From an uncultured Clostridia bacterium (lineage in GTDB: Bacteria > Bacillota > Clostridia > Oscillospirales > Acutalibacteraceae), in NCBI GenBank assembly GCA_944383955.1, contig CALWRP010000187.1:1-63391 (forward strand): DNA of 63,391 nucleotides, read 5' to 3'. Below are positions 43,929-60,078 of the stretch, piece after piece. The position numbers and the translations under genes were made by a program. Position 1 is the stretch's first letter. Every line of letters starts with the position of its first letter. Below the pieces are notes generated by a model. It was not told the DNA's origin, searched no databases, and worked only from the letters and a program-made list of their open reading frames with translations.

Positions 43929-46004
43929 TCAGACGTAGAAGAGGATGTCCTCATAGACCGGGAAGGGCCAGCTCTCCTTGCCGACGAGAAGCTCGAGGCT
44001 GTCGGCGGCGGCGCGTGCCTCCTCCATGGCGGGGATGACCTGCGCGTGGTAATAGGAGGCGGCCTCGTGGACGTCCTCCGGCACGCCGTCCTCCTTCTGC
44101 TGCAAGAGAGACTGCGCGGCGGCGAGCTGCGCGGCCTTGGCGGAGATCTCGCTCACGAGCGCCTTCTCGGTCGCGGCGTCAATGCCGAGACCGGCCTTGA
44201 CGGCGGCGGAGGAGGCGAGCTTGCCGGAATAGTCGAGGCAGGCGGGCAGGATCTGGCGGGAAATCATGCGCAGCATCGTCTCGGCCTCGATGTGGATCGT
44301 CTTGTTGTACTCCTCGAGGCCGATCTCCTCGCGGGACTTCATCTCCTCGAGCGTGTAGACGCCGTGGCGGGTGAAGAGGGCGACATTCTTCTCGCTCGTG
44401 TAGAGCGGCAGGGCGTCCGGCGTGGAGCGCAGGTTCAGCAGGCCGCGGCGGGCAGCCTCCTCCTCCCACTCCTTGCTGTAGCCATTGCCGTTGAAGATGA
44501 TGCGGCGGTGAGCCGCCAGCTCGCGGCGGACCAGGGCGGTGAGAGCGGCCTCGAGATCGGGCGTGCCCTCAAGCTCGTCTGCAAAGACGCGCAGCGACTC
44601 GGCCACGGCCGTGTTGAGCATGATGTTGGTGCACGCGATGTTGAACGAGGAGCCGGGCATACGGAACTCGAACTTGTTGCCGGTGAAGGCAAAGGGCGAG
44701 GTTCTGTTGCGGTCGGAGTGGTCGAGCGGAATCGGCGGCAGGACGGACGCGCCGACGGAGACATACTTCTTCTGGCTGTCGCCGCAGCTCTTGCCGGAGA
44801 CAAGGGACTCGATGACGGCCTCCAGATCGTCGCCGACATACATGGAGACGATGGCAGGCGGAGCCTCGTTCGCGCCGAGGCGATGGTCGTTGCCCGCGTT
44901 GGCGACGGAGATGCGCAGGAGATCCTGGTATTCGTCCACCGCCTTGATGACGGCAGTGAGGAAGAGCAGGAACTGCGCGTTGGAGATCGGGGTCTTGCCG
45001 GGATCGAGGAGGTTCTCGCCCGTATCGGTGGAAATCGACCAGTTGTTGTGCTTGCCGGAGCCGTTGATGCCCTCGAACGGCTTCTCGTGCAGCAGGCAGA
45101 CGAAGCCGTGGCGATCGGCGATCTTCTTCATCAGCTCCATGGCGAGCTGGTTGTGGTCGGTGGCGATGTTGGTGGTGGAGAAGACGGGAGCCATCTCATG
45201 CTGGCAGGGGGCCACCTCGTTGTGCTCCGTCTTGGCGGCGACGCCGAGCTTCCACAGCTCCTCGTCGAGCTCATCCATGAAGGCCTTGACGCGCGGGCGG
45301 ATGGAGCCGAAATAGTGATCCTCGAGCTCCTGGCCCTTGGGCGCGTGCGCGCCGAACAGCGTGCGGCCGCTCAGAATCAGATCCAGGCGCTTGGCGTAAT
45401 CGGATTTGTTGATGAGGAAATACTCCTGCTCCGCGCCGACGGTGGTCGTCACGCGGCGGACGTCCTTGCCGAAGAGCTTGAGGACGCGGCAGGCCTCCCG
45501 GCTGATGGCGTCCATCGAGCGCAAAAGCGGCGTCTTCTTGTCGAGGATCTCGCCCGTGTAGGAGCAGAAGGCGGTGGGGATGCACAGCGTCTTGTCCTTG
45601 ATGAAGGCGTAGGAGGTCGGATCCCAGGCGGTGTAGCCGCGTGCCTCAAACGTGGCGCGCAGGCCGCCGGAGGGGAAGGAGGAGGCGTCCGGCTCGCCCT
45701 TCGTCAGCTCCTTGCCGGAGAACTCCATGATGACGGAGCCGTCGCCCTGCGGGGAGAGGAAGGAATCGTGCTTCTCGGCGGTCACGCCGGTCATCGGCTG
45801 GAACCAGTGCGTGAAGTGGGTGGCTCCGTGCTCGATGGCCCAGTCCTTCATCACGGAGGCGACGACGTTCGCCACGCCTGGCGCGAGGGGGCTGCCCTCC
45901 TCCATCGTCTTCTTCAGGGCGCGAAAAATATCCTTCGGGAGCCTGTCTCGCATGACGGACTCGTTAAACGAAAGGCTTCCAAACATTTCCGGTACTCTGC
46001 TCAT
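43929..46004 (-). CDS. glnN: glutamine synthetase type III
   Basis: Large dodecameric glutamine synthetase of 691 aa, the normal GSIII size. Signatures include the GSIII-specific [10 protein letters not shown] and HDSFLSP near residues 65-82, [47 protein letters not shown], and [19 protein letters not shown]. The ATG at 46004 has AGGAG ten bases upstream. It is the last gene of the minus-strand cluster purC-glnA2-ANTAR-glnN. It is preceded by a terminator-like attenuator and no obvious promoter, so read-through past that hairpin probably controls it. Confidence 0.97.
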
Positions 46005-46075: not shown

Positions 46076-46133
46076 TCAAAAAAGGCGCCGCGGGAGGGGA
46101 ATCGAATCCCCTGCACCGCAGCGCCTTTGCTGC
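46076..46133 (-). ncRNA. hexaloop/terminator attenuator upstream of glnN
   Basis: On the minus strand GCAGC-[AAAGGC]-GCTGC (46133-46118) forms a 5-bp stem with a hexaloop having A at 1 and G at 4. The loop plus 3' strand, AAAGGCGCTGCGG (46128-46116), also pairs over 13 bp with CCGCGGCGCCTTT (46093-46081), followed by TTTTTT, a complete terminator. An inner GGGGA/TCCCC stem sits at the apex. The two structures are mutually exclusive. It lies between the ANTAR gene stop and glnN. Confidence 0.8.
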
Positions 46134-46139
46134 CGATGT

Positions 46140-46712
46140 TCAGTTGGTTGCTTCATATTGCCGGATTACCGTGAGAGCGGCTTCCCGGCGGGAGACGCGC
46201 AGGTCCATCGCGCGGCGCTCCAGACAGTGGTGCGCCTCGTCCTCCGTCATGTGCAGCCGCTCAATGAGGAGGCATTTCGCGCGGCAGGCCAGGCGGGTGT
46301 CGTCCAGCTTTTGCAGCAGCTCCGCGTTTTTTCGCTGCAGCTGCGCAATCCGCATGCGCGAAACGGACAGCAGGCGGACGGCCTGCATGAGGGCGGAGCG
46401 GGAGATCGGCTTTTCCAGCACGAAGACGCCGAGCTTTTCCAGCGGAGGCGCGGCCTCCGCCGCCTGCAGGGCGGGAGCCACGAGCACAACGCCCGCCATG
46501 GTCGCGTCCGCGCAGGAGGCGGCCAGCTCGGCGCCGAACTCATCGGGAAGCGGGGCGTTGATCAGCACCAGGTCGAGGGAGAGCTCGAGAAGCTTTCGTC
46601 TGGCCTCTCCGGCGCTTGTGGCTGTCACCGTGCGGGAGCAGCCGCAGCCCCTCAGAAGGGACGCCAGCGCGGGAAGGGATTTCTCCCCGCTCACGATCAA
46701 GGCGTTCTCCAT
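46140..46712 (-). CDS. ANTAR-domain RNA-binding response regulator with degenerate receiver
   Basis: A 190-residue protein. Residues 3-112 have a receiver-like fold (ENALIVSG..., LDLVLINAPLPDEFG, VFVLEKPIS). The phospho-acceptor position is Asn52, and the acidic pair after strand 1 is replaced by Ser-Gly; only Lys101 remains. A coiled coil (about 117-142) leads into the ANTAR domain (about 143-186: RAKCLLIERLHMTEDEAHHCL...SRREAALTVIRQY). ANTAR proteins bind hexaloop RNA hairpins and block terminators. It lies between glnA2 (43 bp) and glnN, pointing to nitrogen control by antitermination. No AmiC/NasS-type sensor is adjacent. Confidence 0.9.
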   Translation of the reverse strand: MENALIVSGEKSLPALASLLRGCGCSRTVTATSAGEARRKLLELSLDLVLINAPLPDEFGAELAASCADATMAGVVLVAPALQAAEAAPPLEKLGVFVLEKPISRSALMQAVRLLSVSRMRIAQLQRKNAELLQKLDDTRLACRAKCLLIERLHMTEDEAHHCLERRAMDLRVSRREAALTVIRQYEATN

Positions 46713-46755
46713 TGTCTATCCCCCCGTGCTGAACCGGAATTGCCGCGCACGCGCG

Positions 46756-48057
46756 TCAGATCCGATCGAAATACCGCTCGATCTCATACCGGTACGGGTC
46801 GCCAGCCGCCGTATACTCGGCAAACTCCCTCTCCTTCTGCTTTATATACTGAGAGAGGTATTTTTCCGGCAGGACGGAATGGATAAACTCGCTCTGCCCC
46901 GCCGCCTCGAGCGCATCGCCGAGGCTCTGCGGCAGGCGGGATTCCCCGGCGTCCGCCCCGTCGAAATCGGAGGGAGGCGGGAGAGGCAGGCCCTCGCGGA
47001 CGCCGCTCATGGCTGCCTCCAGCAGGAGGGCCGCCACCACATACGGGTTGCAGGCGGGGTCCGGGGAACGAACCTCAATGCGGGAATCCGAGCCGGACGC
47101 AGCGGGCAGCCGCACCAGCTGGGAACGGTTCTGCGCCGACCACCCGACGGCGGACGGCGCTTCAAAGCAGCCGAGCCGCCGGTAGGAGCCGGGCAGAGGA
47201 TTCGCGAAAGCGGTGATCGCCGGGATATGCCGCAGGATACCGGCCAGCATGGAGGCCGCCTGCGGATCAGGGCAATCACGGAAATTTTCAAACAGATTCT
47301 TCTCCCCTCTCCAGGCGGAGAGGTTGAAGTGCAGGCCGCTGCCGCTCTCCTTCTCGATGGGCTTGGGAAGGAAGGAGGCGAAGAGGCCGTTCTGCGCCGC
47401 GATGGCCTTGACGGCGGTGCGCAGCGTCTCGAGATTATCGGCCGCCTGCAGCGGAGCGGAGCGGTGGAAATCCACCTCGTTCTGCCCCGGCCCCTGCTCG
47501 TGGTGCGAGCGCTCCGGGCGAAGGCCCATCTCCTCGAGCGTGAGGCAGATGCTGCGCCGCACGTTCTCGCCGTGGTCGAGGGGCATCACGTCAAAGTAGT
47601 CCGCCCTGTCATACGGCTTGAGCACGGGCTCTCCCCTTTCGTTGGTGGCGAAGAGATAGAACTCGCATTCCGGGCCGAGCTGGAACGAAAAGCCCTCCTC
47701 GAGCGCCCTTCGCTCCGTGCGGGCCAGAAGGAGACGGCCGTCGCCCTCGAAGGGCCTGCCGTCGGGATAGCGGATATTGCAGTAGAAGCGGGCGACGCAG
47801 CCCTGCGACGGCCTCCACGGGAAGATGGCCAGCGTGTCCGGATCGGGGTGGAGAAAGAGATCCGACTCCGTCACATTGCCAAAGCCCGCAATCGCGGAGG
47901 CGTCGAACGAGACGCCCTTCTCGAAGGCGTGCTCCAGGTACGACGACAGGATGGCGATATTCTTTTGTACGCCGAAGATATCGCAGAACGCCAGGCGGAC
48001 GAACTTGATGTCGTTCTCCTCGACGAACTGCAGGATATCGGAAATCCCCCGTGTCAT
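46756..48057 (-). CDS. second, divergent type I glutamine synthetase
   Basis: A 433-residue GSI paralogue of the 443-residue glnA product. Catalytic blocks are kept: GPECEFYLF, GQNEVDFHRS, SGSGLHFNLSAW, PGSYRRLGCFEAPS, and NRSQLVRLPAASG. However, the feedback-site segment reads AIAGFGNVTESDL, placing Asn61 where GlnA has Arg62, and several loops differ. It could be a glutamine synthetase with altered regulation or a gamma-glutamyl ligase for another amine. The ATG at 48057 lies ten bases after AAAGGAG. It is second in the purC cluster, 52 bp after purC. Confidence 0.88.
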   Translation of the reverse strand: MTRGISDILQFVEENDIKFVRLAFCDIFGVQKNIAILSSYLEHAFEKGVSFDASAIAGFGNVTESDLFLHPDPDTLAIFPWRPSQGCVARFYCNIRYPDGRPFEGDGRLLLARTERRALEEGFSFQLGPECEFYLFATNERGEPVLKPYDRADYFDVMPLDHGENVRRSICLTLEEMGLRPERSHHEQGPGQNEVDFHRSAPLQAADNLETLRTAVKAIAAQNGLFASFLPKPIEKESGSGLHFNLSAWRGEKNLFENFRDCPDPQAASMLAGILRHIPAITAFANPLPGSYRRLGCFEAPSAVGWSAQNRSQLVRLPAASGSDSRIEVRSPDPACNPYVVAALLLEAAMSGVREGLPLPPPSDFDGADAGESRLPQSLGDALEAAGQSEFIHSVLPEKYLSQYIKQKEREFAEYTAAGDPYRYEIERYFDRI

Positions 48058-48109
48058 CGGGTTGTCTCTCCTTTCGCGCGCATCGCCCCGCGGCGCGTCC
48101 AATCAGAAA

Positions 48110-48820
48110 TTATTTGCCAAGCAGGCGGTGCAGCACCTCGCGGTACGCTTCCTCCTCGCCGCCGAGGTCGCGGCGGAACAGATCCTTGTCGAGATGGGCG
48201 TGGGTCTTGACGTCCCAGAAGCGGCAGGTGTCGGGGCTGATCTCGTCGGCGAGAATCACCTTGCCGTCCATGTCGCGGCCAAACTCGAGCTTGAAGTCGA
48301 TGAGCTCGATGCCGGCGGTCTTGAGGTACTCGCCGAGCTCCTTGTTGATCTTCATGCTGAAGTCCGCGATCTGGGCCAGCTCCTCGGGAGTGGCAACGCC
48401 GAGAGCGGCGATGTGATACTCGTTGACCATGGGATCGCCGAGAGCGCCATCCTTATAGCAGTACTCGAGCACGGTGCTGCTGAGCTTCGTGCCCTCCTCC
48501 ATGCCGAGGCGCTTGGCGAGGCTGCCGGCCGCGACGTTGCGGACGATGACCTCGAGCGGGATGATCTGCACCTTCTTGACGAGGGTGTCCGTATCGGAAA
48601 CCTCCTCGACAAGATGGGTCGGGATGCCCTTCGTCTCCAGGAAGCGCATGAGATGATTCGTCACCAGGTTGTTGACGACGCCCTTGCCGCGGATCGTTCC
48701 GCGCTTGGCGCCGTTGCCGGCTGTCGCGTCGTCCTTATAGCGGACGAGGTAAACGTCAGGGCGGTCCGTTTTGAATACTTTCTTGGCCTTTCCTTCATAA
48801 AGCAGTTCCAGGTTTTCCAT
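48110..48820 (-). CDS. purC: phosphoribosylaminoimidazole-succinocarboxamide synthase
   Basis: Joins CAIR and aspartate with ATP, step 8 of IMP synthesis. The 236-residue enzyme starts [18 protein letters not shown] and contains the SAICAR signatures [24 protein letters not shown] and [14 protein letters not shown]. It is first in the cluster with glnA2, the ANTAR gene and glnN, an unusual grouping of a purine gene with glutamine synthetases. The promoter and a structured attenuator-like leader lie upstream, divergent from carA. Confidence 0.97.
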
Positions 48821-48850
48821 ACTAGCATTCCTCTCTTCCTGCGGCGTTGT

Positions 48851-48909
48851 TTCCGTAGATGATCCACAAAGGGCACTACGGAAGTATGTACCCCGCAGCG
48901 CCCTTGCTG
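48851..48909 (-). ncRNA. hexaloop/terminator attenuator in the purC leader
   Basis: On the minus strand CAGC-[AAGGGC]-GCTG (48909-48896) begins within a few bases of the predicted start. Its loop and 3' strand AAGGGCGCTGCGG (48905-48893) also pair over 13 bp with CCGTAGTGCCCTT (48881-48869), followed by a short TTTGTGG tract. A third element, TTCCGTAG/CTACGGAA (48883-48876 with 48858-48851), competes with the 3' arm. The weak T tract makes termination less certain here than at the sister sites. Confidence 0.65.
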
Positions 48910-48920
48910 TTTACAAATGT

Positions 48921-48949
48921 ATTGTAGCGCTTTGAAATGCGTCTGTCAA
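48921..48949 (-). promoter_or_regulatory. sigma-A promoter of the purC-glnA2-ANTAR-glnN cluster
   Basis: TTGACA (48949-48944), 17-bp spacer, TACAAT (48926-48921) on the minus strand. Confidence 0.85.
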
Positions 48950-49049
48950 GTCAATCCGCGGAAAGTCCTCAGATTTTATACTTTGCTGTAAAATCATCGC
49001 TCCGAGGCTCTCGGAATCGTGCCATCTTCTGAAAATCGCAAAAGGACGG

Positions 49050-49089
49050 TTTGCAGGATCTTGACCTTTCTCCTGCAAAGTGCTATAAT
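49050..49089 (+). promoter_or_regulatory. carA promoter with flanking inverted repeat
   Basis: TTGACC (49061-49066), 17-bp spacer, TATAAT (49084-49089). TTTGCAGGA (49050-49058) and TCCTGCAAA (49071-49079) are exact 9-bp inverted repeats on either side of the -35 box, a position suited to a repressor. Confidence 0.75.
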
Positions 49090-49098
49090 GCCGTAGAT

Positions 49099-49155
49099 GG
49101 ACAAAGGCGTTCAGAGGCCGCTTTCACCAAAGGCGGCCCCGGGACGCCTTTTTTC
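49099..49155 (+). ncRNA. hexaloop/terminator attenuator in the carA leader
   Basis: GGAC-[AAAGGC]-GTTC (49099-49112) starts at the predicted 5' end. The loop and 3' strand AAAGGCGTTC (49103-49112) also pair with GGACGCCTTT (49142-49151), followed by TTTC, a full terminator with an inner GGCCGC/GCGGCC stem. Compared with the sister sites the stem sequence has changed but pairing is retained, which supports a selected structure. A second AAAGGC occurs at 49130-49135 but only between a 2-bp CC/GG stem. Confidence 0.8.
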
Positions 49156-49208
49156 TTTTGTATTTTCCGTGCGCGCGGCTGCGCGGCCACGGGACAGGAG
49201 GGTACGCC

Positions 49209-50315
49209 ATGGAAAAAACCTGTTATCTTGTATTGGAAAACGGCGCATGGTTCGCCGGAAAAAGCTTCGGCGCGCAGCCCGCGAGCGGCGGCGTCGCCGG
49301 GGAAGCCGTCTTCACCACGGCCATGACCGGCTATCTCGAGACGCTCACCGACCCGAGCTACTGCGGGCAGCTCGTCGTACAGACCTTCCCGCTCATCGGG
49401 AATTACGGCGTCATCCCCGCCGATTTTGAAAGCGTACGCCCGCGTCTGGCGGCTTATATTGTAAGAGAATGGTGCCGGGTTCCCTCCAATTTCCGAAGTG
49501 AGGGGGATCTCGACGCCTTTTTAAAAGAAAACGGCATTCCGGGTCTTTACGGAATCGACACGCGCGCCCTCACCCGAACGCTCCGCGACCACGGGACGAT
49601 GAACGCCCTTTTGACCGAAGAGGCTCCGCCCTACGGCGAGGAGCTGCTCGAGCGGCTCCGCGGATTCCGGCAGGAGCCGAGCGTCCCGCTGGTGACGCGG
49701 CAGAAGGCGGAGGCTTACGGGGGCAGCGGGCCGCACGTCGTCCTCTGGGACTTCGGCGCAAAGCAGAACCTCATCCGGGAGCTCACAAAGCGCGGCTGCC
49801 GCGTGACCGCCGTTCCTTCCTTCACGACGGCGGAGGAGCTTCTGGCTCTTCGCCCTGACGGCGTCCTCCTCTCCAACGGCCCCGGCGACCCGGCGGACAA
49901 TATGGACATCGTGCGGGAGGCCGAAAAGCTTTTCGCGGCGAAAATTCCGATGATGGGCGTGTGCCTCGGCCATCAGCTCATGGCGCTCGCGAACGGCGCC
50001 GTGACAGAAAAGCTCCCGTTCGGCCACCGCGGCGCGAACCAGCCCGTCAAGGATCTCCGGACGGGGCGCGTCGCCGTAACAAGCCAGAACCACGGCTACA
50101 CCGTCCGGCCCGACAGCCTGCCCGAGACCGCTTCGCTGCGCTTTGTCAACTGCAACGACGGCACCTGCGAGGGCATCGATTACAGGAACGCCCCCGCGTT
50201 CTCGGTGCAGTTTCATCCGGAGGCGTGCGGCGGGCCGCACGACACCGCCTACCTCTTTGATTGCTTTTTGAAGCTCGTCAATCACGCGGAAAGCGAGGGA
50301 TTCTCATGCCGGTAA
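49209..50315 (+). CDS. carA: carbamoyl-phosphate synthase small (glutaminase) subunit
   Basis: Hydrolyses glutamine and channels ammonia to CarB for arginine and pyrimidine synthesis. The 368-residue subunit has the N-terminal CarA domain (GEAVFTTAMTGYLETLTDPSY) and a class I amidotransferase domain with nucleophile MMGVCLGHQLMA and FSVQFHPEACGGPHDT. AGGAGGG precedes the ATG. It overlaps carB by 10 bp. The upstream attenuator suggests nitrogen-dependent expression. Confidence 0.97.
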   Translation: MEKTCYLVLENGAWFAGKSFGAQPASGGVAGEAVFTTAMTGYLETLTDPSYCGQLVVQTFPLIGNYGVIPADFESVRPRLAAYIVREWCRVPSNFRSEGDLDAFLKENGIPGLYGIDTRALTRTLRDHGTMNALLTEEAPPYGEELLERLRGFRQEPSVPLVTRQKAEAYGGSGPHVVLWDFGAKQNLIRELTKRGCRVTAVPSFTTAEELLALRPDGVLLSNGPGDPADNMDIVREAEKLFAAKIPMMGVCLGHQLMALANGAVTEKLPFGHRGANQPVKDLRTGRVAVTSQNHGYTVRPDSLPETASLRFVNCNDGTCEGIDYRNAPAFSVQFHPEACGGPHDTAYLFDCFLKLVNHAESEGFSCR

Positions 50316-53300
50316 AGCAGCATCTGAAAAAAGTTCTTGTCGTCGGCTCGGGGCCGATTGTGATCGGCCAGGCCGCCGAATTTGACTATGCCGGCACGCA
50401 GGCGTGCCGCGCCCTGCGCGAGGAAGGACTCAACGTCGTCCTCGTCAACTCGAACCCGGCCACCATCATGACGGACGGCGCGATCGCGGACGAGGTCTAC
50501 GTCGAGCCCTTAACGCTGCCGTCGCTTAGGGAGATCATCCGCCGCGAAAAGCCGGACGGCCTGCTCTCCACGCTCGGCGGGCAGACGGGGCTGACGCTCT
50601 CCATGCAGCTCGCGCGCGAGGGCTTCCTCGAGGCGCAGGGCGTGGAGCTGCTCGGCGCGCGCCTTGAAACGATCGAGAAGGCGGAGGATCGCGAGCTGTT
50701 CAAGGAGACGATGGAGTCCATCGGCGAGCCGGTCATCCCGTCGCTCGTCGTCACCGAGGTTGGGGACGCGCTCGACTTCGCGTCGTCCATCTCCTATCCC
50801 GTCATCGTGCGCCCGGCCTTCACGCTCGGCGGCACGGGCGGCGGCATTGCCGAAAACGAGAAGGAGCTCGCCTCCATCGCGGCGAACGGCCTCAGGCAGT
50901 CCCCCATTCATCAGATTCTGGTGGAAAAATGCGTCTCCGGCTGGAAGGAGATTGAGTTTGAGGTGATGCGCGACGCGGCGGGAAACGTCATCACCGTCTG
51001 CTCGATGGAAAACCTCGATCCCGTCGGCATCCACACGGGCGACTCCATCGTCGCCGCGCCCGCTCTCACGCTCGCGGATAAAGAATATCAGATGCTGCGG
51101 ACGGCGGCGCTCAACATCATCTCCTCGCTCGGCATCGAGGGCGGCTGCAACTGCCAGTTCGCACTCGACCCGGAGAGCTTCCGCTATGCCGTCATCGAGG
51201 TGAACCCGCGCGTGTCGCGCTCCTCGGCGCTCGCCTCGAAGGCGACCGGCTACCCCATCGCCCGCGTCGCGGCGAAGATCGCCGTCGGGCTGACGCTCGA
51301 CGAGATCCAGAACGAGGTCACCGGCAAAACGATGGCGTGCTTTGAGCCGGCCCTCGACTATGTGGTCGTCAAGTTCCCGAAGTGGCCGTTTGACAAGTTC
51401 ATCTACGGGTGCCGCCGTCTCGGGACGCAGATGAAGGCGACCGGCGAGGTGATGGCGATCGGCCGCAGCTTTGAGGCCGCGATGATGAAGGCCGTGCGCG
51501 GCGCGGAGCTTTCGCTCGACACGCTCGCAATGCCGAAGCTCGCCGCTTTGACGGACGAGGAGCTGAGGAAAAAGATCCGCGCGCAGGACGACGAGCGCGT
51601 CTTCGCCGTCTATGAGGCGCTGCGGCGCGGGCAGACCACCGGCGAGCTGCACCGCCTGACAAGGATCGACGGGTGGTTCCTCGCGAAGCTCTGGAACCTT
51701 GCCAAAATGGAGCGCACGCTCGCAGAGGATCCGCTGACTGAAGAGCTGTACCGCGAGGCAAAGCGGATGGGCTTCCCGGACAGCGCCGTGCGCCGTCTCT
51801 CCGGCGGCGAGCTGCCGCCCGCTCTTCCCGCCGCCTGCAAGATGGTCGACACCTGCGGCGCGGAATTCGAGGCGGAAACGCCGTACTTCTATTCGTCGCT
51901 CGCCGAGGAGGATGAGGCGCTGCCGTTCATCCGCCGCCGCGCTTCCGGGAAGCCGGTGGTGCTCGTCTTCGGCTCGGGTCCTATCCGCATCGGGCAGGGC
52001 ATCGAATTCGACTACGCGTCCGTCCACTGCGTCATGGCGCTCAAGCGCGCCGGGTATGAGGTGGCGATCGCGAACAACAACCCTGAAACCGTCTCGACCG
52101 ACTTCAACACCGCGGACCGCCTCTACTTCGACCCGCTCACGGCGGAGGACGCGCTGCGCATCGTGGAGCTCGAGCAGCCCGTCGGCGTCGTCGTGGCGTT
52201 CGGCGGACAGACGGCCATCAAGCTGACAAAGCCGCTTGCCGCCGCGGGCGTGCCGATCCTCGGCACGCAGCCGGACGGAATCGACCTCGCGGAGGACCGG
52301 GGCCGATTCGACGCCCTGCTCGAATCGCTCGGCATCAGCCGTCCGGCGGGACGCGCCGTCCTGACCGAGGAGGAGGCGCTCCGGGCCGCGAACGAGCTCG
52401 GCTACCCCGTCCTCATGCGTCCGAGCTATGTGCTCGGCGGGCAGAACATGATCATCGCCTTCTCCGACGCCGACATCCGCGAGTACATGAACGTGATACT
52501 GACGGCGAATCCGGACACTGACGTTCTCATCGACAAGTATCTGATGGGCACGGAGGTGGAGGTCGACGCCGTCTGCGACGGAGAGGACGTGCTCATCCCC
52601 GGCATCATGGAGCACATCGAGCGCGCGGGCATCCACTCGGGCGACTCCATCGCCGTCTATCCGGCGTGGAACCTGAGCGAGAGCCTCACAGAGCAGCTCG
52701 TCGACTATTCGAAAAAGCTCGCCGTCTCCCTCGGCGTGAAGGGCCTCGTCAACATCCAGTATGTGATTCACGAGGGGAAAATCTACGTCATCGAGGCGAA
52801 TCCCCGCTCGTCGCGCACCATCCCGTATATCAGCAAGGTGACGGGCATCCCGCTGGTGGATCTGGCTGTGCGCGCGATGCTCGGCGAGCGTCTGCGCGAC
52901 ATGGGCTACGGCACCGGCCTCGCCGCTCCCGCCGCCTTCCACGCGGTGAAGGTGCCGGTCTTCTCGTTCGAGAAGCTCGGCGGCGTCGACACGCAGCTCG
53001 GACCGGAGATGAAGTCGACGGGCGAGGTGCTCGGCATCGCTCCGACGATGGAGGAAGCGCTCTGCAAGGGACTTCTCGCGGCGGGCTACCGCATCGAGAC
53101 GGACAAGGGACTGCTCGTCACGGTGCGCGACTCCGACAAGGGCGAGATCGCCCCGATTGCCGCCGCCTTCTCCGCTCTCGGCTGTCCGCTCTACGCGACG
53201 GAGGGCACCGCCGCCGTCCTGCGCAAAGCTGGGCTGACGGTGGAAACGGTGCAGAAGATTCACGAGGCGAAGAAAAACACGATGACGCTCCTCGAGAGCG

Positions 53301-53629
53301 GGACGGTCGGCTGCATCCTCTCGACGTCGGCCAAGGGCCGCATCCCGGCGCGCGACAGCGTCAAGCTGCGCCGGAAGGCCGTCGAGCTCGGGATTCCGTG
53401 CCTGACCTCGCTCGACACCGCCGGAGCCCTTGCGTCGATTCTCGGCCGCCATTTCCGGCAGGAGGAGCTCGAGCCCATCGACATCGCGAAAATTCTTCCC
53501 GCAAAAAATGATGCCAAGCGGCTTATCCTGTGCTATACTGAAAAAGGCGCGGCCTTCCCGGCGGGACGCTCCCGCCGCGCGCCCAGATCTGGAAGGGAAC
53601 CGATCAAACACGCAGGAGGTACGACATGA
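50306..53629 (+). CDS. carB: carbamoyl-phosphate synthase large subunit
   Basis: Makes carbamoyl phosphate from ammonia, bicarbonate and two ATP. At 1107 aa it contains two homologous ATP-grasp halves (VLVVGSGPIVIGQAAEFDYAGTQACRAL near the start and VLVFGSGPIRIGQGIEFDYASVHCVMAL around residue 550) and a C-terminal MGS-like allosteric domain. The last about 25 residues are a basic, probably disordered tail. The start at 50306 has GAGGG six bases upstream and lies inside the carA end; the frame to 50261 is not used. It shares ATGA with dapL. Confidence 0.97.
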   Translation: MPVKQHLKKVLVVGSGPIVIGQAAEFDYAGTQACRALREEGLNVVLVNSNPATIMTDGAIADEVYVEPLTLPSLREIIRREKPDGLLSTLGGQTGLTLSMQLAREGFLEAQGVELLGARLETIEKAEDRELFKETMESIGEPVIPSLVVTEVGDALDFASSISYPVIVRPAFTLGGTGGGIAENEKELASIAANGLRQSPIHQILVEKCVSGWKEIEFEVMRDAAGNVITVCSMENLDPVGIHTGDSIVAAPALTLADKEYQMLRTAALNIISSLGIEGGCNCQFALDPESFRYAVIEVNPRVSRSSALASKATGYPIARVAAKIAVGLTLDEIQNEVTGKTMACFEPALDYVVVKFPKWPFDKFIYGCRRLGTQMKATGEVMAIGRSFEAAMMKAVRGAELSLDTLAMPKLAALTDEELRKKIRAQDDERVFAVYEALRRGQTTGELHRLTRIDGWFLAKLWNLAKMERTLAEDPLTEELYREAKRMGFPDSAVRRLSGGELPPALPAACKMVDTCGAEFEAETPYFYSSLAEEDEALPFIRRRASGKPVVLVFGSGPIRIGQGIEFDYASVHCVMALKRAGYEVAIANNNPETVSTDFNTADRLYFDPLTAEDALRIVELEQPVGVVVAFGGQTAIKLTKPLAAAGVPILGTQPDGIDLAEDRGRFDALLESLGISRPAGRAVLTEEEALRAANELGYPVLMRPSYVLGGQNMIIAFSDADIREYMNVILTANPDTDVLIDKYLMGTEVEVDAVCDGEDVLIPGIMEHIERAGIHSGDSIAVYPAWNLSESLTEQLVDYSKKLAVSLGVKGLVNIQYVIHEGKIYVIEANPRSSRTIPYISKVTGIPLVDLAVRAMLGERLRDMGYGTGLAAPAAFHAVKVPVFSFEKLGGVDTQLGPEMKSTGEVLGIAPTMEEALCKGLLAAGYRIETDKGLLVTVRDSDKGEIAPIAAAFSALGCPLYATEGTAAVLRKAGLTVETVQKIHEAKKNTMTLLESGTVGCILSTSAKGRIPARDSVKLRRKAVELGIPCLTSLDTAGALASILGRHFRQEELEPIDIAKILPAKNDAKRLILCYTEKGAAFPAGRSRRAPRSGREPIKHAGGTT

Positions 53630-54807
53630 AAATCAACCGGCATTATCTCTCGCTTGAGGAGAGCTATCTGTTTTCCGAGATCGCCCACCGCGTCTCCCGC
53701 TATACGCAGGAGCACCCGGAGGCCGACGTCATCCGCATGGGCATCGGCGACGTGACGCTGCCGCTGTGCGAGGCTGCCGTCAAGGCGCTGCACGACGCGG
53801 CCGACGACCAGGCGAAGAAGGAAACCTTCCACGGCTACGGCCCGGAGCAGGGCTATGACTTTGTCCGCGAGGCCGTGAGGGACTACTACGCCTCGTTCGG
53901 CGTCGCGGTCGACGCGGCGGACATTTTTGTCGGCGACGGAGCGAAGAGCGACGTCGGCAACATTCTCGACCTGTTCGACGAGGACAACACCGTCCTCATT
54001 CCCGACCCGGTCTATCCCGTCTACCGCGACACGAACCTGATGGCGGGGCGGCGCATCGTCTATCTCGACGCGAACCGCGAAAACGGCTTCCTCCCGATGC
54101 CGAATCCGGAGCAGAAGGCCGATATCATCTACCTGTGCTCTCCGAACAATCCGACGGGCGCCGTCTACAGCCGCGAGCAGCTGACGGAATGGGTGCGCTA
54201 CGCGAACGCGCAGGACGCCGTGCTGCTCTTTGACGCGGCCTACGAGGCGTTTGTGCAGGACCCTGCCCTGCCGCGCAGCATCTTTGAGATTGAGGGCGCG
54301 CGCGAGTGCGCGATCGAATTCTGCTCCCTCTCGAAGACGGCGGGCTTTACCGGTATGCGCTGCGGGTATACGGTGATCCCCGGCTCTCTCACGCGCGGGG
54401 GAGCCTCCCTGCGCGCCATGTGGCTGCGCCGCCAGACGACGAAATTCAACGGTGCGTCCTACCCGGTGCAGCGCGCCGCGGCGGCCGTGTTCTCGCCCGA
54501 GGGACTCGAGGGCTGCCGGAAAAATCTCGCCGTCTACCGCGAAAATGCCCTGCTCATCTCGAATACGCTCCGCGACCTCGGGATCTGGCACGTCGGCGGC
54601 GTGAACTCCCCGTACATCTGGATGCAGTGCCCGAACGGAATGTCCTCGTGGGACTTCTTTGACCTCCTGCTTGAGAAGGCGCATATCGTCGGCACGCCGG
54701 GCAGCGGCTTCGGCAAAAACGGAGAGGGCTTCTTCCGCCTGACGGCGTTCGGCTCCCCCGAGGCCACCCGGGAGGCCATGGATCGCCTGCGCGCCCTTCT
54801 CGCCTGA
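53626..54807 (+). CDS. dapL: LL-diaminopimelate aminotransferase
   Basis: Converts tetrahydrodipicolinate directly to LL-diaminopimelate with glutamate as donor, bypassing succinyl or acetyl intermediates. The 393-residue PLP enzyme starts KINRHYLSLEESYLFSEIAHRV and has MGIGDVTLPL, SPNNPTGAVY and the PLP-Lys block FCSLSKTAGFTGMRCGYTVIP. It overlaps the carB stop by 4 bp and has AGGAGG, so carAB-dapL forms one transcription unit. DapF at 6.2 kb uses its product. Confidence 0.97.
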   Translation: MKINRHYLSLEESYLFSEIAHRVSRYTQEHPEADVIRMGIGDVTLPLCEAAVKALHDAADDQAKKETFHGYGPEQGYDFVREAVRDYYASFGVAVDAADIFVGDGAKSDVGNILDLFDEDNTVLIPDPVYPVYRDTNLMAGRRIVYLDANRENGFLPMPNPEQKADIIYLCSPNNPTGAVYSREQLTEWVRYANAQDAVLLFDAAYEAFVQDPALPRSIFEIEGARECAIEFCSLSKTAGFTGMRCGYTVIPGSLTRGGASLRAMWLRRQTTKFNGASYPVQRAAAAVFSPEGLEGCRKNLAVYRENALLISNTLRDLGIWHVGGVNSPYIWMQCPNGMSSWDFFDLLLEKAHIVGTPGSGFGKNGEGFFRLTAFGSPEATREAMDRLRALLA

Positions 54808-54930
54808 TGAAGCAGTCTTTTTTGACAGAAAATTAAATATGACTGCATTATGAACGCGGCCCCGTTGCTTCTCAGAGGAGAAAAACGGGGCTGTTTTGCA
54901 TTGTTTTTCTCATTTTTGTAGTTTTGCACA

Positions 54931-54988
54931 TTCACAGGCCGTATTGTGAAGATTTGTTTTTGCAATTTAATTTATGATAAATTGCAAA
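54931..54988. promoter_or_regulatory. two inverted repeats upstream of the amt promoter
   Basis: TTCACA-8-TGTGAA (54931-54950) and TTTGCAATTTA-8-TAAATTGCAAA (54959-54988, 11-bp arms). Both have 8-bp spacers, and the second ends six bases before the -35 box, as expected for activator or repressor sites. Confidence 0.5.
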
Positions 54989-54994
54989 ATTAGA

Positions 54995-55023
54995 TTGACT
55001 TTTTCTCCCTGCGGATCTATAAT
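54995..55023 (+). promoter_or_regulatory. sigma-A promoter of amt
   Basis: TTGACT (54995-55000), 17-bp spacer, TATAAT (55018-55023). Confidence 0.85.
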
Positions 55024-55032
55024 ACAAATCGA

Positions 55033-55075
55033 AGCAAGGGTGCTGCGGTAAGGAAGCCGCGGCACCCTTCTTTTG
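55033..55075 (+). ncRNA. dual-hexaloop/terminator attenuator in the amt leader
   Basis: Hairpin 1 is AGC-[AAGGGT]-GCT (55033-55044), directly after the predicted start. Hairpin 2 is GCGGT-[AAGGAA]-GCCGC (55045-55060). Both hexaloops have A at 1 and G at 4. AAGGGTGCTGCGG (55036-55048) also pairs over 13 bp with CCGCGGCACCCTT (55057-55069), followed by CTTTTG, a terminator that excludes hairpin 1. This is the closest match to the two-hexaloop ANTAR target architecture in the window. Confidence 0.82.
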
Positions 55076-55128: not shown

Positions 55129-56856
55129 ATGGGACTGAGCTATGTTTCCGCTGACGTCATATGGGTTCTGCTCGGCGCGGCTCTCGTCTTCTTTATGCAG
55201 GCAGGCTTCGCAATGGTCGAGACCGGATTTACCCGGGCAAAAAACGCAGGCAACATCATCATGAAAAACCTGATGGACTTTGCCATCGGCACGCCCATCT
55301 TCTGGTTCTTCGGCTTTGGCCTCATGTTCGCGGGCACCGGCTCGCTGATCGGCGGGCTTGATTTCTTCATCCAGGGCGACTACAGCTTTATGGGGCTTTC
55401 CGTTCCGCTGTGGGCGTACGCGATTTTCCAGACCGTCTTCTGCGCCACCGCGGCGACCATCGTCTCCGGCGCGATGGCGGAGCGCACCAAGTTCATCTCC
55501 TACTGCATTTACAGCGCCGTGATCAGCGCCTTCATCTATCCCATTTCCGGCCACTGGATCTGGGGCGGCGGCTGGCTCGCGCAGCTCGGCTTCCATGATT
55601 TCGCCGGTTCGACCGCCGTGCATATGGTCGGCGGCGTAGCCGCCCTCATCGGCGCGAAGATTCTCGGGCCCCGTATCGGCAAGTACGACAAGAACGGCAA
55701 GCCCCGCGCGATTCCCGGCCACAGCCTGACGCTCGGCGCGCTCGGCGTGTTCATCCTCTGGTTCTGCTGGTTCGGCTTCAACGGCTGCTCGACCATCTCC
55801 ATCTCGAGCGAGGAGAGCATGGTTGCCGCCGGACGCATCTTCTTCACCACCAACCTGGCTGCCGCCACCGCGACGGTCGCCGTCATGATCATCACCTGGA
55901 TCCGCTATAAGAAGCCCGACGTCTCGATGACGCTCAACGGCTCCCTCGCCGGCCTCGTGGCCATTACCTCCGGCTGCGACGTCGTCACCCCCGTCGGCGC
56001 GTTCTTTATCGGCCTGATTGCGGCATTCGTTGTCGTCTTCGGCATTGAGTTTGTCGACAAGGTCCTCAAGATCGACGATCCGGTCGGCGCCATCGGCGTG
56101 CACGGTATGTGCGGCGCAACCGGCACGATCGTAACGGGACTGTTCGCTTACTATCTGACTGACGACGCCGGAAACCCGCTCGGCCTGTTCTACGGCGGCG
56201 GCTTCTCCTTCCTCGGCACTCAGCTGCTCGGCATGATCGCGGTGATCGCCTGGGTTGCCGTCACCATGACCATCGTTTTCACCATCATCAAGAAGACCGT
56301 CGGCCTGCGCGCCAGCCGCGAGGAGGAAATCCGCGGCCTGGACGTTACGGAGCACAACCTCGTGAGCTCCTACGCGGACTTCCTGCCGATGCCTCCCCAG
56401 GTTCTCACCGGCGAGACCGAGAACGCCACCTCCGTCCTGCTGCAGTCTCATGACGCTCCCGCCGCCGCGCCGGCCATTCAGCCCGCCGCGACCGAGGCAA
56501 AGCTGACGAAGCTTTCGATCCTCTGCCGTCAGGAGAGCTTCTCGCAGCTCAAGGAGGCCATGAACGCCATCGGCGTAACCGGCATGACCGTCACCCAGGT
56601 GCTCGGCTACGGCCTCCAGAAGGGCCGCGACACCTACTACCGCGGCGTCAAGCTCGAAGACGCAAAGCTCCTGCCGAAGGTGAAGGTGGAGATTGTCGTG
56701 AGCAAGGTGCCTGTGGACACCGTCATCGAGGCGGCGCGCGAAGCGCTGTACACCGGACGTGTCGGCGACGGCAAGATTTTCGTCTACAACGTGGAAAACA
56801 CGGTTCGGATCCGCACCGGAGAGCAGGGCGTCGACGCTCTGCAGGGCGAGGACTGA
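55129..56856 (+). CDS. ammonium transporter with fused C-terminal PII domain
   Basis: A 575-residue protein. Residues 1-400 are an Amt channel with eleven spans, the twin pore histidines (His165 in STAVHMVGG and His325 in IGVHGMCGAT) and the typical DFAGSTAVHM motif. After an Ala/Pro-rich linker (about 440-457), residues 459-570 are a PII signal-transduction domain: T-loop GYGLQKGRDTYYRGV, LLPKVKVEIVV and B-loop TGRVGDGKIFV. PII normally is a separate trimer that plugs Amt; here sensor and channel are one chain. The ATG at 55129 has AGGAGG seven bases upstream. Confidence 0.95.
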   Translation: MGLSYVSADVIWVLLGAALVFFMQAGFAMVETGFTRAKNAGNIIMKNLMDFAIGTPIFWFFGFGLMFAGTGSLIGGLDFFIQGDYSFMGLSVPLWAYAIFQTVFCATAATIVSGAMAERTKFISYCIYSAVISAFIYPISGHWIWGGGWLAQLGFHDFAGSTAVHMVGGVAALIGAKILGPRIGKYDKNGKPRAIPGHSLTLGALGVFILWFCWFGFNGCSTISISSEESMVAAGRIFFTTNLAAATATVAVMIITWIRYKKPDVSMTLNGSLAGLVAITSGCDVVTPVGAFFIGLIAAFVVVFGIEFVDKVLKIDDPVGAIGVHGMCGATGTIVTGLFAYYLTDDAGNPLGLFYGGGFSFLGTQLLGMIAVIAWVAVTMTIVFTIIKKTVGLRASREEEIRGLDVTEHNLVSSYADFLPMPPQVLTGETENATSVLLQSHDAPAAAPAIQPAATEAKLTKLSILCRQESFSQLKEAMNAIGVTGMTVTQVLGYGLQKGRDTYYRGVKLEDAKLLPKVKVEIVVSKVPVDTVIEAAREALYTGRVGDGKIFVYNVENTVRIRTGEQGVDALQGED

Positions 56857-58734: not shown

Positions 58735-58754
58735 AAAAAAAGAATAACGGGAAT

Positions 58755-58848
58755 GAAGTGCTCCCCCGGGAAACCGGAACCGCTTGAAAGAGCTGATGAC
58801 TTCTGCGATGTTTACGCGGAAGCTGTCGGCTTTTTTTGATGCCGAAAA
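58755..58848 (+). ncRNA. structured leader of the cation:proton antiporter gene
   Basis: The leader of about 120 nt can form GAAGT/ACTTC plus GCTC/GAGC with an inner CCGG-GAAA-CCGG hairpin, or alternatively an 8-bp CTTCTGCG/CGCGGAAG stem that uses part of the same bases. A TCGGC/GCCGA hairpin with a T-rich loop stands just before the ribosome site AAGGAGG. The switchable layout resembles an ion-responsive riboswitch, but no known class was recognised. Confidence 0.4.
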
Positions 58849-58863
58849 CAAGGAGGAACTAAT

Positions 58864-60078
58864 ATGCTCACTTCTCTCGCGCTCATTTTTCTTGTCGGTC
58901 TGGCCGCCGCGGCGCTGTGCCAGCTCCTGCACATCCCGCGGATCCTCGGGATGCTCGCAGTCGGCGTGGCGCTCGGACCGCACGCGCTCAATCTGCTCGA
59001 CGCTTCCATCCTCTCGATCTCCGGCGACCTCAGGCAGATGGCGCTCGTCATCATCCTGCTCAAGGCGGGCCTGTCGCTCAATCCGGACGATTTGAAAAAG
59101 GTGGGGCGTCCCGCCGTGCTGATGGCGTTCGTCCCGGCGTCGTGCGAGATCCTCGCGTTTATCCTGTTCGCGCCCGCGCTGCTCGGCGTGTCGCGCGCTG
59201 AGGCGGCGGTCATGGGCGCGGTGATCGGGGCCGTCTCCCCCGCCGTCGTCGTGCCGCGCATGGTGCAGCTCATGGAGAGCGGCTGGGGGACGAAAAAGAG
59301 CGTGCCGCAGCTCATCCTCGCCGGGGCGTCGTGCGACGACGTGTATGTGATCGTCCTGTTCACCGCCTTCGTCTCGATGGCGCAGGGCGGCGAGGTCAGC
59401 GCCGCGAGCCTGCTGGAGATCCCCGTCTCCGTCGTGCTCGGCGTACTGCTCGGCGCTGCCGCCGGGTGGGCGATCGGATGGTTCTTCGAGACCGCCTTCG
59501 CGAAGCGGCGGTATGTGCGGAACAGCACGAAGACGGTCGTCGTGCTCGGGCTCGCGTTCTCCTGCCTCGCGATCGAGACGGCGCTCAAGGGCACGGTGCC
59601 CGTCTCCGGGCTGCTCGCCGTCGTGAGCATGGCGTGCGTCCTCAAGCGGAAAAGCGTCTCGTTCGTCTCCCGGCGGCTTTCGGAAAAGTTCGGGAAGCTC
59701 TGGATCGCGGCGGAGCTTCTGCTGTTCGTTCTCGTCGGCGCGGCGGTGGACATCCGCTACACCGTCTCCGCGGGCGCGGCGGCGATTTTCATGCTGGTGA
59801 TTTCGCTGATGCTGCGCTCGCTCGGCGTCGCGGTGTGCACGCTGCGCACGCCGCTTTCCGCGAAGGAGAGGCTGTTCTGCTGCATTGCCTACCTGCCGAA
59901 GGCGACGGTGCAGGCGGCGATCGGCTCCGTACCGCTCTCGCTCGGCCTGCCGTGCGGGCAGATCGTGCTCTCCGTCGCGGTGCTGGCCATTCTCATCACC
60001 GCCCCGCTCGGCGCGTTCGGGATGGATCTGACGTATCAGAGGCTTTTGACGAAGGAAAGCGGGGAAAAATCCGCCTGA
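58864..60078 (+). CDS. cation:proton antiporter (CPA family)
   Basis: A 404-residue membrane protein with about eleven to twelve spans, typical of monovalent cation:H+ antiporters. It contains LHIPRILGMLAVGVALGP, the GAVIGAVSPAVVVPRM segment, and GASCDDVYVIVLF with the paired acidic residues in the ion site (about 158-159). Ion specificity (sodium or potassium) is unknown. The ATG at 58864 follows AAGGAGG. A leader with alternative hairpins precedes it, and it ends at a bidirectional terminator shared with lrgB. Confidence 0.9.
   Translation: MLTSLALIFLVGLAAAALCQLLHIPRILGMLAVGVALGPHALNLLDASILSISGDLRQMALVIILLKAGLSLNPDDLKKVGRPAVLMAFVPASCEILAFILFAPALLGVSRAEAAVMGAVIGAVSPAVVVPRMVQLMESGWGTKKSVPQLILAGASCDDVYVIVLFTAFVSMAQGGEVSAASLLEIPVSVVLGVLLGAAAGWAIGWFFETAFAKRRYVRNSTKTVVVLGLAFSCLAIETALKGTVPVSGLLAVVSMACVLKRKSVSFVSRRLSEKFGKLWIAAELLLFVLVGAAVDIRYTVSAGAAAIFMLVISLMLRSLGVAVCTLRTPLSAKERLFCCIAYLPKATVQAAIGSVPLSLGLPCGQIVLSVAVLAILITAPLGAFGMDLTYQRLLTKESGEKSA

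Follow-up and report, generated by a model that had tools for sequence, protein, structure and literature searches.

In the described ANTAR-target RNAs (eutP, amiE and nasF; Ramesh et al. 2012), two hairpins stand in tandem, and both are needed for the induction of eutP (PMC3369931). EutV requires both loops in vivo (PMC3369931, PMC3369936). The structure of EutV and surface plasmon resonance reduce the binding motif to one hexaloop, and the crystal complex binds single loops (PMC8934654). Its authors suggest that a hairpin serves for recruitment, and they anticipate single sites in settings where transcription exerts no time pressure. The sufficiency of one hexaloop for ANTAR antitermination was left open there in 2022, and the need for two hairpins was put down to how little time the polymerase leaves. 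Another related system is NitR of Clostridium saccharobutylicum, which is cited as an ANTAR antiterminator of the glutamine synthetase and glutamate synthase (GS/GOGAT) genes under nitrogen limitation (Stutz et al. 2007, as cited in PMC6316151 and PMC4676874).

Here we describe four leaders located ahead of amt, carA, purC and glnN in a stretch of 63,391 nucleotides from an uncultured Clostridia bacterium of the family Acutalibacteraceae (assembly GCA_944383955.1, contig CALWRP010000187.1; hereafter, the window). All four carry a hexaloop with A at position 1 and G at position 4 (A1/G4) on a short stem, and a gene for an ANTAR protein with a pseudo-receiver domain lies next to glnA in the same cluster. 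The leaders share with the ANTAR-target RNAs the A1/G4 hexaloop, the overlap with an intrinsic terminator, the nitrogen genes, and the co-occurrence with an ANTAR gene, but they differ in having a single hairpin, with which the RNA is predicted to begin and whose loop is itself part of the terminator foot. Because the two tandem hairpins that define the described family are lacking, the leaders fall outside it. We consider it probable (roughly 80%) that the glnA-linked pseudo-receiver ANTAR protein antiterminates via one promoter-fused hexaloop, with both the binding and the termination predicted. The hairpins, promoter matches, terminator overlap, conservation, gene content and ANTAR co-occurrence reported below were established from the sequence and by statistics.

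Predicted hexaloop attenuators in the window

The window was scanned on both strands for A1/G4 hexaloops with a stem of at least three pairs whose loop or 3′ strand pairs downstream in front of T's. The scan found seven sites, and the top four were the leaders of amt, carA, purC and glnN (scores of 25.5, 23.5, 23.0, and 22.0, respectively; the fifth site scored 17.0), at the very places where the original prediction had put a family of four hairpins. Among 20 dinucleotide-shuffled windows, only one match in total scored 22 or more. Folding agreed with a further claim of that prediction: in each of the four leaders, the loop and the 3′ strand double as the 5′ arm of a helix that is strong and terminator-like. 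The energies of these helices are −30.5, −33.8, −25.5, and −39.4 kcal/mol for amt, carA, purC and glnN, respectively (z = −6.8, −5.1, −4.0, and −5.8), and none of 200 shuffles folded as well.

A promoter scan of the region 42–60 kb gave eight promoter-like sites, the top three of which (11 of 12 matches each) belong to amt, carA and purC. The hairpins of these three genes are predicted to be the 5′ end of the RNA, as had been proposed, because each lies behind a strong predicted promoter, 9–11 nt past its −10 box. At amt, the predicted promoter TTGACT-17-TATAAT (54995–55023, + strand) is followed by the hairpin AGC[AAGGGT]GCT (55033–55044, +), which is kept in the two closest relatives (L033 and L034), and by a terminator (55036–55069, +; folding) leading into CTTTTGTT. 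At carA, the predicted promoter TTGACC-17-TATAAT (49061–49089, +) precedes the hairpin GGAC[AAAGGC]GTTC (49099–49112, +), which matches the covariance model R1 described below with an E-value of 6e-6 (the site is in the training set), and folding and the window scan placed the terminator at 49103–49151 (+), in front of a T-rich tract. The divergent purC leader consists of the predicted promoter TTGACA-17-TACAAT (48921–48949, − strand), the hairpin CAGC[AAGGGC]GCTG (48896–48909, −; R1 E-value of 5e-7, likewise a training site), and a terminator-like helix with a weak T tract (48869–48905, −; folding and window scan). The glnN hairpin, GCAGC[AAAGGC]GCTGC (46118–46133, −; window scan), lies inside an operon, 6 nt past the stop codon of the ANTAR gene; no promoter of its own was found, and a terminator with a T tract follows (46081–46128, −; folding and window scan).

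In the purC leader, the 3′ arm of the terminator, TTCCGTAG (48883–48876, −), is also able to pair with the downstream segment CTACGGAA (48858–48851, −), and both segments are conserved in L033 and L034. A third alternative helix may thus accompany the weak T tract of this leader.

The original prediction had made its case depend on conservation upstream of orthologous genes, and such conservation was found. All four hairpins with their overlapping terminators are kept in a genome of the same genus (G078) and in contig C33 of the same bin (L033, 1–11310). C33 holds a second version of the whole amt-to-glnN cluster, whose proteins are 83–99% identical to those of the window (89% for the ANTAR protein). 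C33 probably belongs to another strain or species placed in the same bin, although it could also be a true duplication.

Predicted hexaloop attenuators across glnA-ANTAR loci

We scanned the window and 100 further glnA-ANTAR loci (1.70 Mb) with a rule blind to the loop letters, which called for a hairpin stem of at least four pairs and a loop feeding a terminator. Of the 100 loci, 80 were the best-ranked among at least 585 confirmed relatives; the other 20 comprised 19 stretches drawn from the family sample and one additional contig from the bin that holds the window. Loops of 4, 5, 6, 7, and 8 bases gave 59, 48, 139, 39, and 82 sites, respectively. Among the 139 hexaloops, 93 had both A1 and G4, compared with about 9 expected with free letters. 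Since one of the 93 repeats a site in a second register, 92 sites in 52 loci remain. Rfam gave no match above the gathering score at the window leaders, nor at the attenuators in the six of the 100 loci that were searched. The loci with such attenuators include those of Faecalibacterium prausnitzii (L121), Anaerotruncus colihominis (L071) and Butyricicoccus (L056), which suggests how gut Clostridia such as these may control nitrogen assimilation.

Looking up to 40 nt upstream of the loop, we found a promoter with at least 9 of 12 matches at 72 of the 92 A1/G4 sites; the shuffled mean was 7.6, and of 46 other hexaloops 5 had one. The −10 box ends 10–18 nt before the loop at 66 of these 72 sites. 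With promoters sitting just in front of the A1/G4 loops, the RNA should start with the hairpin. When folded in isolation, 86 of the 92 hairpins keep the 6-base loop. The terminator is more stable than the hairpin in all 92 cases (medians of −28.3 and −5.2 kcal/mol), and its stem ends 20–73 nt (median 33.5) behind the end of the hairpin.

The reality of the stem was assessed with sites for whose selection no stem was required. Among 174 distinct terminators starting with AANGRY, 78 are flanked by at least four pairs, whereas swapping the flanks gave a mean of 17.1 and a maximum of 29 in 500 trials. Ten altered loop motifs in the same test had a stem in 0–4 of 15–77 cases. With neither stem nor terminator required, 73 of 121 promoter-linked AANGRY sites have at least four pairs, and 343 of the 484 inner pairs at these sites are Watson–Crick, compared with 204.6 after the flank swap.

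As near-perfect palindromes that span roughly +1 to +25, the repeats might be read as DNA operators for a repressor, the terminator being incidental. Several results argue against such a function. The loop bases are fixed as A1 and G4 instead of being free, at 20 of the 92 sites the rule used finds no promoter, and the loop coincides with the terminator foot in all 19 held-out matches described below. Sites with exactly one non-Watson–Crick inner pair have G–T in 8 of 17 cases (2 of 12 letter pairs expected), an excess that favors RNA over a DNA operator but is only suggestive, because the G–T share pooled over all non-Watson–Crick pairs shows no excess (0.18 versus 0.19 in the swap null) and is neutral. 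We regard a DNA operator as very improbable.

Association with the ANTAR gene

The search of relatives and of the genome itself with a covariance model, as suggested in the original prediction, was carried out with R1, which covers the promoter and the hairpin in 57 positions and does not include the terminator. At E ≤ 1e-4, R1 matched 37 of 61 ANTAR-positive and 2 of 38 ANTAR-negative genomes among 99 other genomes of the family (Fisher 1e-8). Without the six training genomes, the numbers were 32 of 55 and 2 of 38. ANTAR-negative genomes tend to be smaller; at sizes of at least 1.8 Mb, matches were found in 35 of 55 ANTAR-positive and 0 of 11 ANTAR-negative genomes. The odds ratios in the family sample were 18–28 at E-values of 1e-3 to 1e-5 and 8.9 at 1e-2. 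Run on the genome of the window itself, R1 returned 65 matches at E ≤ 10; six were at E < 0.01, three of them window leaders and three in C33. The next seven matches showed no A1/G4 attenuator at the matched place. The strong matches in this genome, whose assembly is 92.7% complete, are restricted to the cluster of the window and its version in C33.

The association was also examined with a test that is anchored on the glnN gene and is independent of any model. Of 102 GSIII_N matches, the test left out the two belonging to the window, two fragments, and one half (the second) of a split match, and so comprised 97 leaders. An A1/G4 attenuator was present at glnN in 38 of 51 ANTAR-positive and 3 of 27 ANTAR-negative genomes (Fisher 6e-8, odds ratio of 23). 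Attenuators with other loops were found at 3 of 69 leaders in ANTAR-positive genomes and 1 of 28 in ANTAR-negative genomes.

At the class level, 147 genomes were compared, the listed ones belonging to other families, with the ANTAR protein called at E ≤ 1e-15. Strong R1 matches occurred in 26 of 48 ANTAR-positive and 4 of 99 ANTAR-negative genomes (Fisher 7e-12, odds ratio of 28). Twenty class-level matches were taken up as loci, one of which turned out to be the window's own. The remaining held-out matches, at most 78% identical to any training row, all carry a terminator overlapping the loop (19 of 19; 16 distinct), a feature absent from R1. The same feature was found at none of 19 weak matches of the window's own genome and at none of 152 shifted places.

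Terminators are common, and the window scan itself lists seven sites, so that the leaders might be thought to be ordinary terminators or chance palindromes. The scores of the window scan relative to shuffles, the excess of A1/G4, the stem test, the co-occurrence at glnN, and the two empty control sets all speak against chance, and we give this explanation almost no weight.

A number of observations weigh against our proposal. The T tract of purC is weak, as had been pointed out in the original prediction, and it is just as weak in L033 and L034. The predicted hexaloop form stood for carA, purC and glnN, which keep a six-base loop in isolated folding (−3.5, −4.8, and −8.7 kcal/mol, respectively), but not for the isolated amt hairpin (−2.9 kcal/mol), in which a predicted A1–U6 pair leaves a loop of four bases. 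The six exceptions among the 92 sites are of the same kind, being AAAGGT loops that end in T and are predicted to form a 4-base loop. The alignment A2 of 64 sequences, with 85.7% paired and 95 double changes (40.8 when shuffled), was set aside as main evidence, because a stem of at least four pairs was a selection rule for 62 of the 64 sequences and the pair counts are partly circular. A strict A1/G4 attenuator is found in only 52 of the 101 glnA-ANTAR loci. At the loose cut-off of E ≤ 1e-2, R1 matches 52 of the 61 ANTAR-positive genomes of the family, but also 15 of the 38 ANTAR-negative ones. By the strict rule, 13 of the 51 ANTAR-positive genomes with glnN show no attenuator there, and two (L242 and L289) of the 39 leader matches in ANTAR-positive genomes are doubtful; dropping both costs one genome. 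At the class level, 22 of the 48 ANTAR-positive genomes have no strong R1 match. A few ANTAR-negative genomes have a clear attenuator, for example the glnN leader of G006 (L193, 2161), a genome in which no ANTAR gene was detected; the gene may be missing from the assembly or lost, or another reader may act. Finally, some of the attenuated genes, such as those in L337 and L203, have no obvious nitrogen role or identity.

The few ANTAR-negative genomes that keep the leader and the many ANTAR-positive genomes without a strong match would be accommodated if the loop of the same attenuator were read by another RNA-binding protein or by a ligand such as glutamine. The A1/G4 hexaloop is, however, the known ANTAR signature (PMC3369931, PMC8934654), the three sets of odds ratios given above tie the leaders to the ANTAR gene, and the hairpin seems very small for an aptamer. 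We think it quite improbable that a different reader is responsible.

One hexaloop or two

The original prediction had suspected that recognition may differ from that of the classical two-hairpin target, and for the group as a whole this suspicion proved correct. A second A1/G4 hexaloop within 40 nt upstream showed no excess, occurring at 3 of the 72 promoter-linked sites (3.2 in shuffled sequences); at the 20 sites without a promoter, it occurred twice (0.9 in shuffled sequences). The two tandem hairpins of the ANTAR-target RNAs are thus not seen, and the promoters leave no room for one upstream. A classical dual target with a hidden second hairpin, either in the terminator tip or upstream through an earlier start, is nevertheless suggested by the interval between the hairpin and the end of the terminator, in which a second hexaloop with a 3-bp stem was found at 10 of the 72 sites (shuffled 4.4, s.d. 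1.9). Two Ruminococcus amt leaders (L093 and L096) have such a hexaloop 4 nt downstream. With 4-bp stems the excess is gone (3 of 72 versus 1.7). The distance of 10–18 nt between the −10 end and the loop at 66 of the 72 promoters runs counter to a hidden upstream hairpin. For the sites as a whole we judge the dual target unlikely; a minority, for example the Ruminococcus amt leaders, may use a second loop.

The second hexaloop that the original prediction had seen at amt, AAGGAA, exists as the tip of the terminator. It is replaced by an 8-base tip in L033 and a GAAA tip in L034; because neither of these two closest relatives has a hexaloop there, it is probably incidental, and its candidacy as a functional second hairpin (P2) was rejected. 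This lack of conservation also speaks against a dual target, as does the position of the candidate 'first hexaloop' of carA from the dual scan, which overlaps the −10 box. The 10 pairs that the dual scan returned with 4-bp stems in the 101 loci were rejected as chance-like.

Little is available as a positive control for the two-hairpin form. The dual scan with 4-bp stems found no pair near ten other ANTAR genes, so that these ten loci were of no use for this purpose. When seven eut loci were scanned with a looser rule, two sites with an upstream partner appeared, a typical one (L321, 9566) and a weak one with 3-bp stems (L322, 11124).

The single-hexaloop sites thus depart from the expectation in PMC8934654, since they look like attenuators under the very time constraint that should be absent at single sites. 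Two catalogues searched for, or were curated to, two stem-loops (PMC3369931, PMC8164766), and because they looked for two, a single-hairpin class would tend to be missed. We found no report of single-hexaloop attenuators among the papers listed in a literature search covering titles, beginnings of abstracts and passages, subscription papers such as Stutz 2007 aside. The sequence comparisons lead us to propose, with fair confidence, a conserved, promoter-fused, single-hexaloop class of ANTAR-type attenuators before glutamine and ammonia genes. The many natural one-hairpin candidates at a predicted start make the question of whether one hexaloop is enough directly testable.

Proposed mechanism

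By default, the strong intrinsic terminator would form in the RNA; for amt, carA and purC, transcription would then end about 45–65 nt past the predicted start. As the hairpin is weak and the terminator strong, termination should be the default state and something must hold the hairpin. In the proposed antitermination, the ANTAR protein would bind the nascent RNA at its 5′ end, on the single A1/G4 hexaloop. The bases of the AARGGY loop are predicted to pair with RCCYTT just ahead of the U tract, and the bound protein would mask the loop bases and the 3′ strand, thereby removing the foot of the terminator. RNA polymerase would then read on into amt, carA, purC-glnA-ANTAR and glnN. A first 'recruitment' hairpin would have no part in this mechanism, as no more than a few nucleotides separate the hairpin from the predicted transcription start. 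Binding would have to take place while the 20–73 nt between the end of the hairpin and the end of the terminator stem are transcribed. Read-through would occur when nitrogen is short, the direction being taken from that reported for NitR. A sensor presumably acts on the pseudo-receiver, and the best candidate is the adjacent glutamine synthetase. Termination, binding, direction and the role of the sensor are all predictions. A wider generalization, to which we would give rather less than even odds, is that in much of Clostridia a one-hexaloop ANTAR protein runs ammonia assimilation and glutamine use, that its target is the first 25 nt of the RNA and at the same time the terminator foot, and that it acts independently of phosphorylation on a signal from the neighboring glutamine synthetase.

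Genes behind the attenuators

The genes downstream of the A1/G4 attenuators were assigned by a first open reading frame (ORF) rule, which gave glnN (23), gltB-type GATase_2 (16), amt (9), glnA (6), asnA (4) and carA (2). Closer inspection and Pfam added asnB, purA, pyrG and a glutamate dehydrogenase gene, one each, and nadE was added from reading of the sequence only. The purC attenuator recurs in another family (L343). The identified genes mainly concern ammonia, glutamine, asparagine and purines. The earlier idea of one antitermination regulon gains support from the recurrence of the design before glnN, gltB-type genes, amt, glnA, asnA, asnB, the glutamate dehydrogenase gene, purA, pyrG and purC, together with the strong association with the ANTAR gene.

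Twenty divergent attenuator pairs, spaced 143–325 nt, resemble the carA/purC pair of the window, and are found in L056, L063, L069, L071, L084, L126 and 14 other loci. It is a speculation that this layout would let one dimer meet two nascent hexaloops. The glnN leaders of L279, L284, L290, L297 and L301 form a third class of stem, AAAGGC[AAAGGC]GTCTTT, whose 5′ strand has the same sequence as the loop. Near-identical sites in three loci of one genus (L332, L333 and L335) are strong promoter-fused hexaloop attenuators with only short ORFs in the 450 nt that were inspected behind them.

Genes of the cluster and the ANTAR protein

The genes on the + strand are amt (55129–56856), for an ammonium transporter fused to a C-terminal PII domain (PF00909, PF00543), and carA (49209–50315), for the small chain of carbamoyl-phosphate synthase (PF00988, PF00117), which is followed by carB. 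The − strand carries purC (48110–48820; SAICAR synthetase, PF01259), glnA (46756–48057; type I glutamine synthetase, PF00120 and PF03951), the gene of the pseudo-receiver ANTAR protein that we propose as the antiterminator (46140–46712; PF03861, 44.9 bits against a cut-off of 27.3), and glnN (43929–46004; type III glutamine synthetase, PF12437 and PF18318). Pfam also identified carB, an aminotransferase, and domains of purF in the window. Since purC, glnA, the ANTAR gene and glnN follow one another on one strand, the purC leader would also control the antiterminator gene, and the position of that gene inside the cluster implies positive feedback.

The ANTAR domain is C-terminal in the 46140–46712 product, and the input domain is receiver-like. 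All 18 aligned ANTAR proteins have Asn at the place of the phospho-acceptor Asp54 of EutV, and the phospho-acceptor of a genuine receiver is thus lacking. Asn was also found at this place in 95 of the 101 loci, a count that is biased because one of the search patterns itself contained Asn. Tyr164 of EutV, which stacks on G4 of the hexaloop, is replaced by His, as in AmiR. Solved relatives of the protein are 1s8n, 6wsh and 1qo0, and an NCBIfam search returned no family for it. The combination of an ANTAR output domain with a non-phosphorylated input domain is shared with AmiR (1qo0; PMC8934654) and NasT-type regulators, but unlike in those systems, the ANTAR gene directly follows glnA in 98 of the 101 loci. 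This adjacency, together with the attenuators before glnA, glnN and gltB-type genes, may point to a likeness to NitR as that regulator is described.

Apart from the cluster, a fluoride riboswitch (RF01734, 44.9 bits) was found at 58740–58812 (+), ahead of the ORF at 58864–60078.

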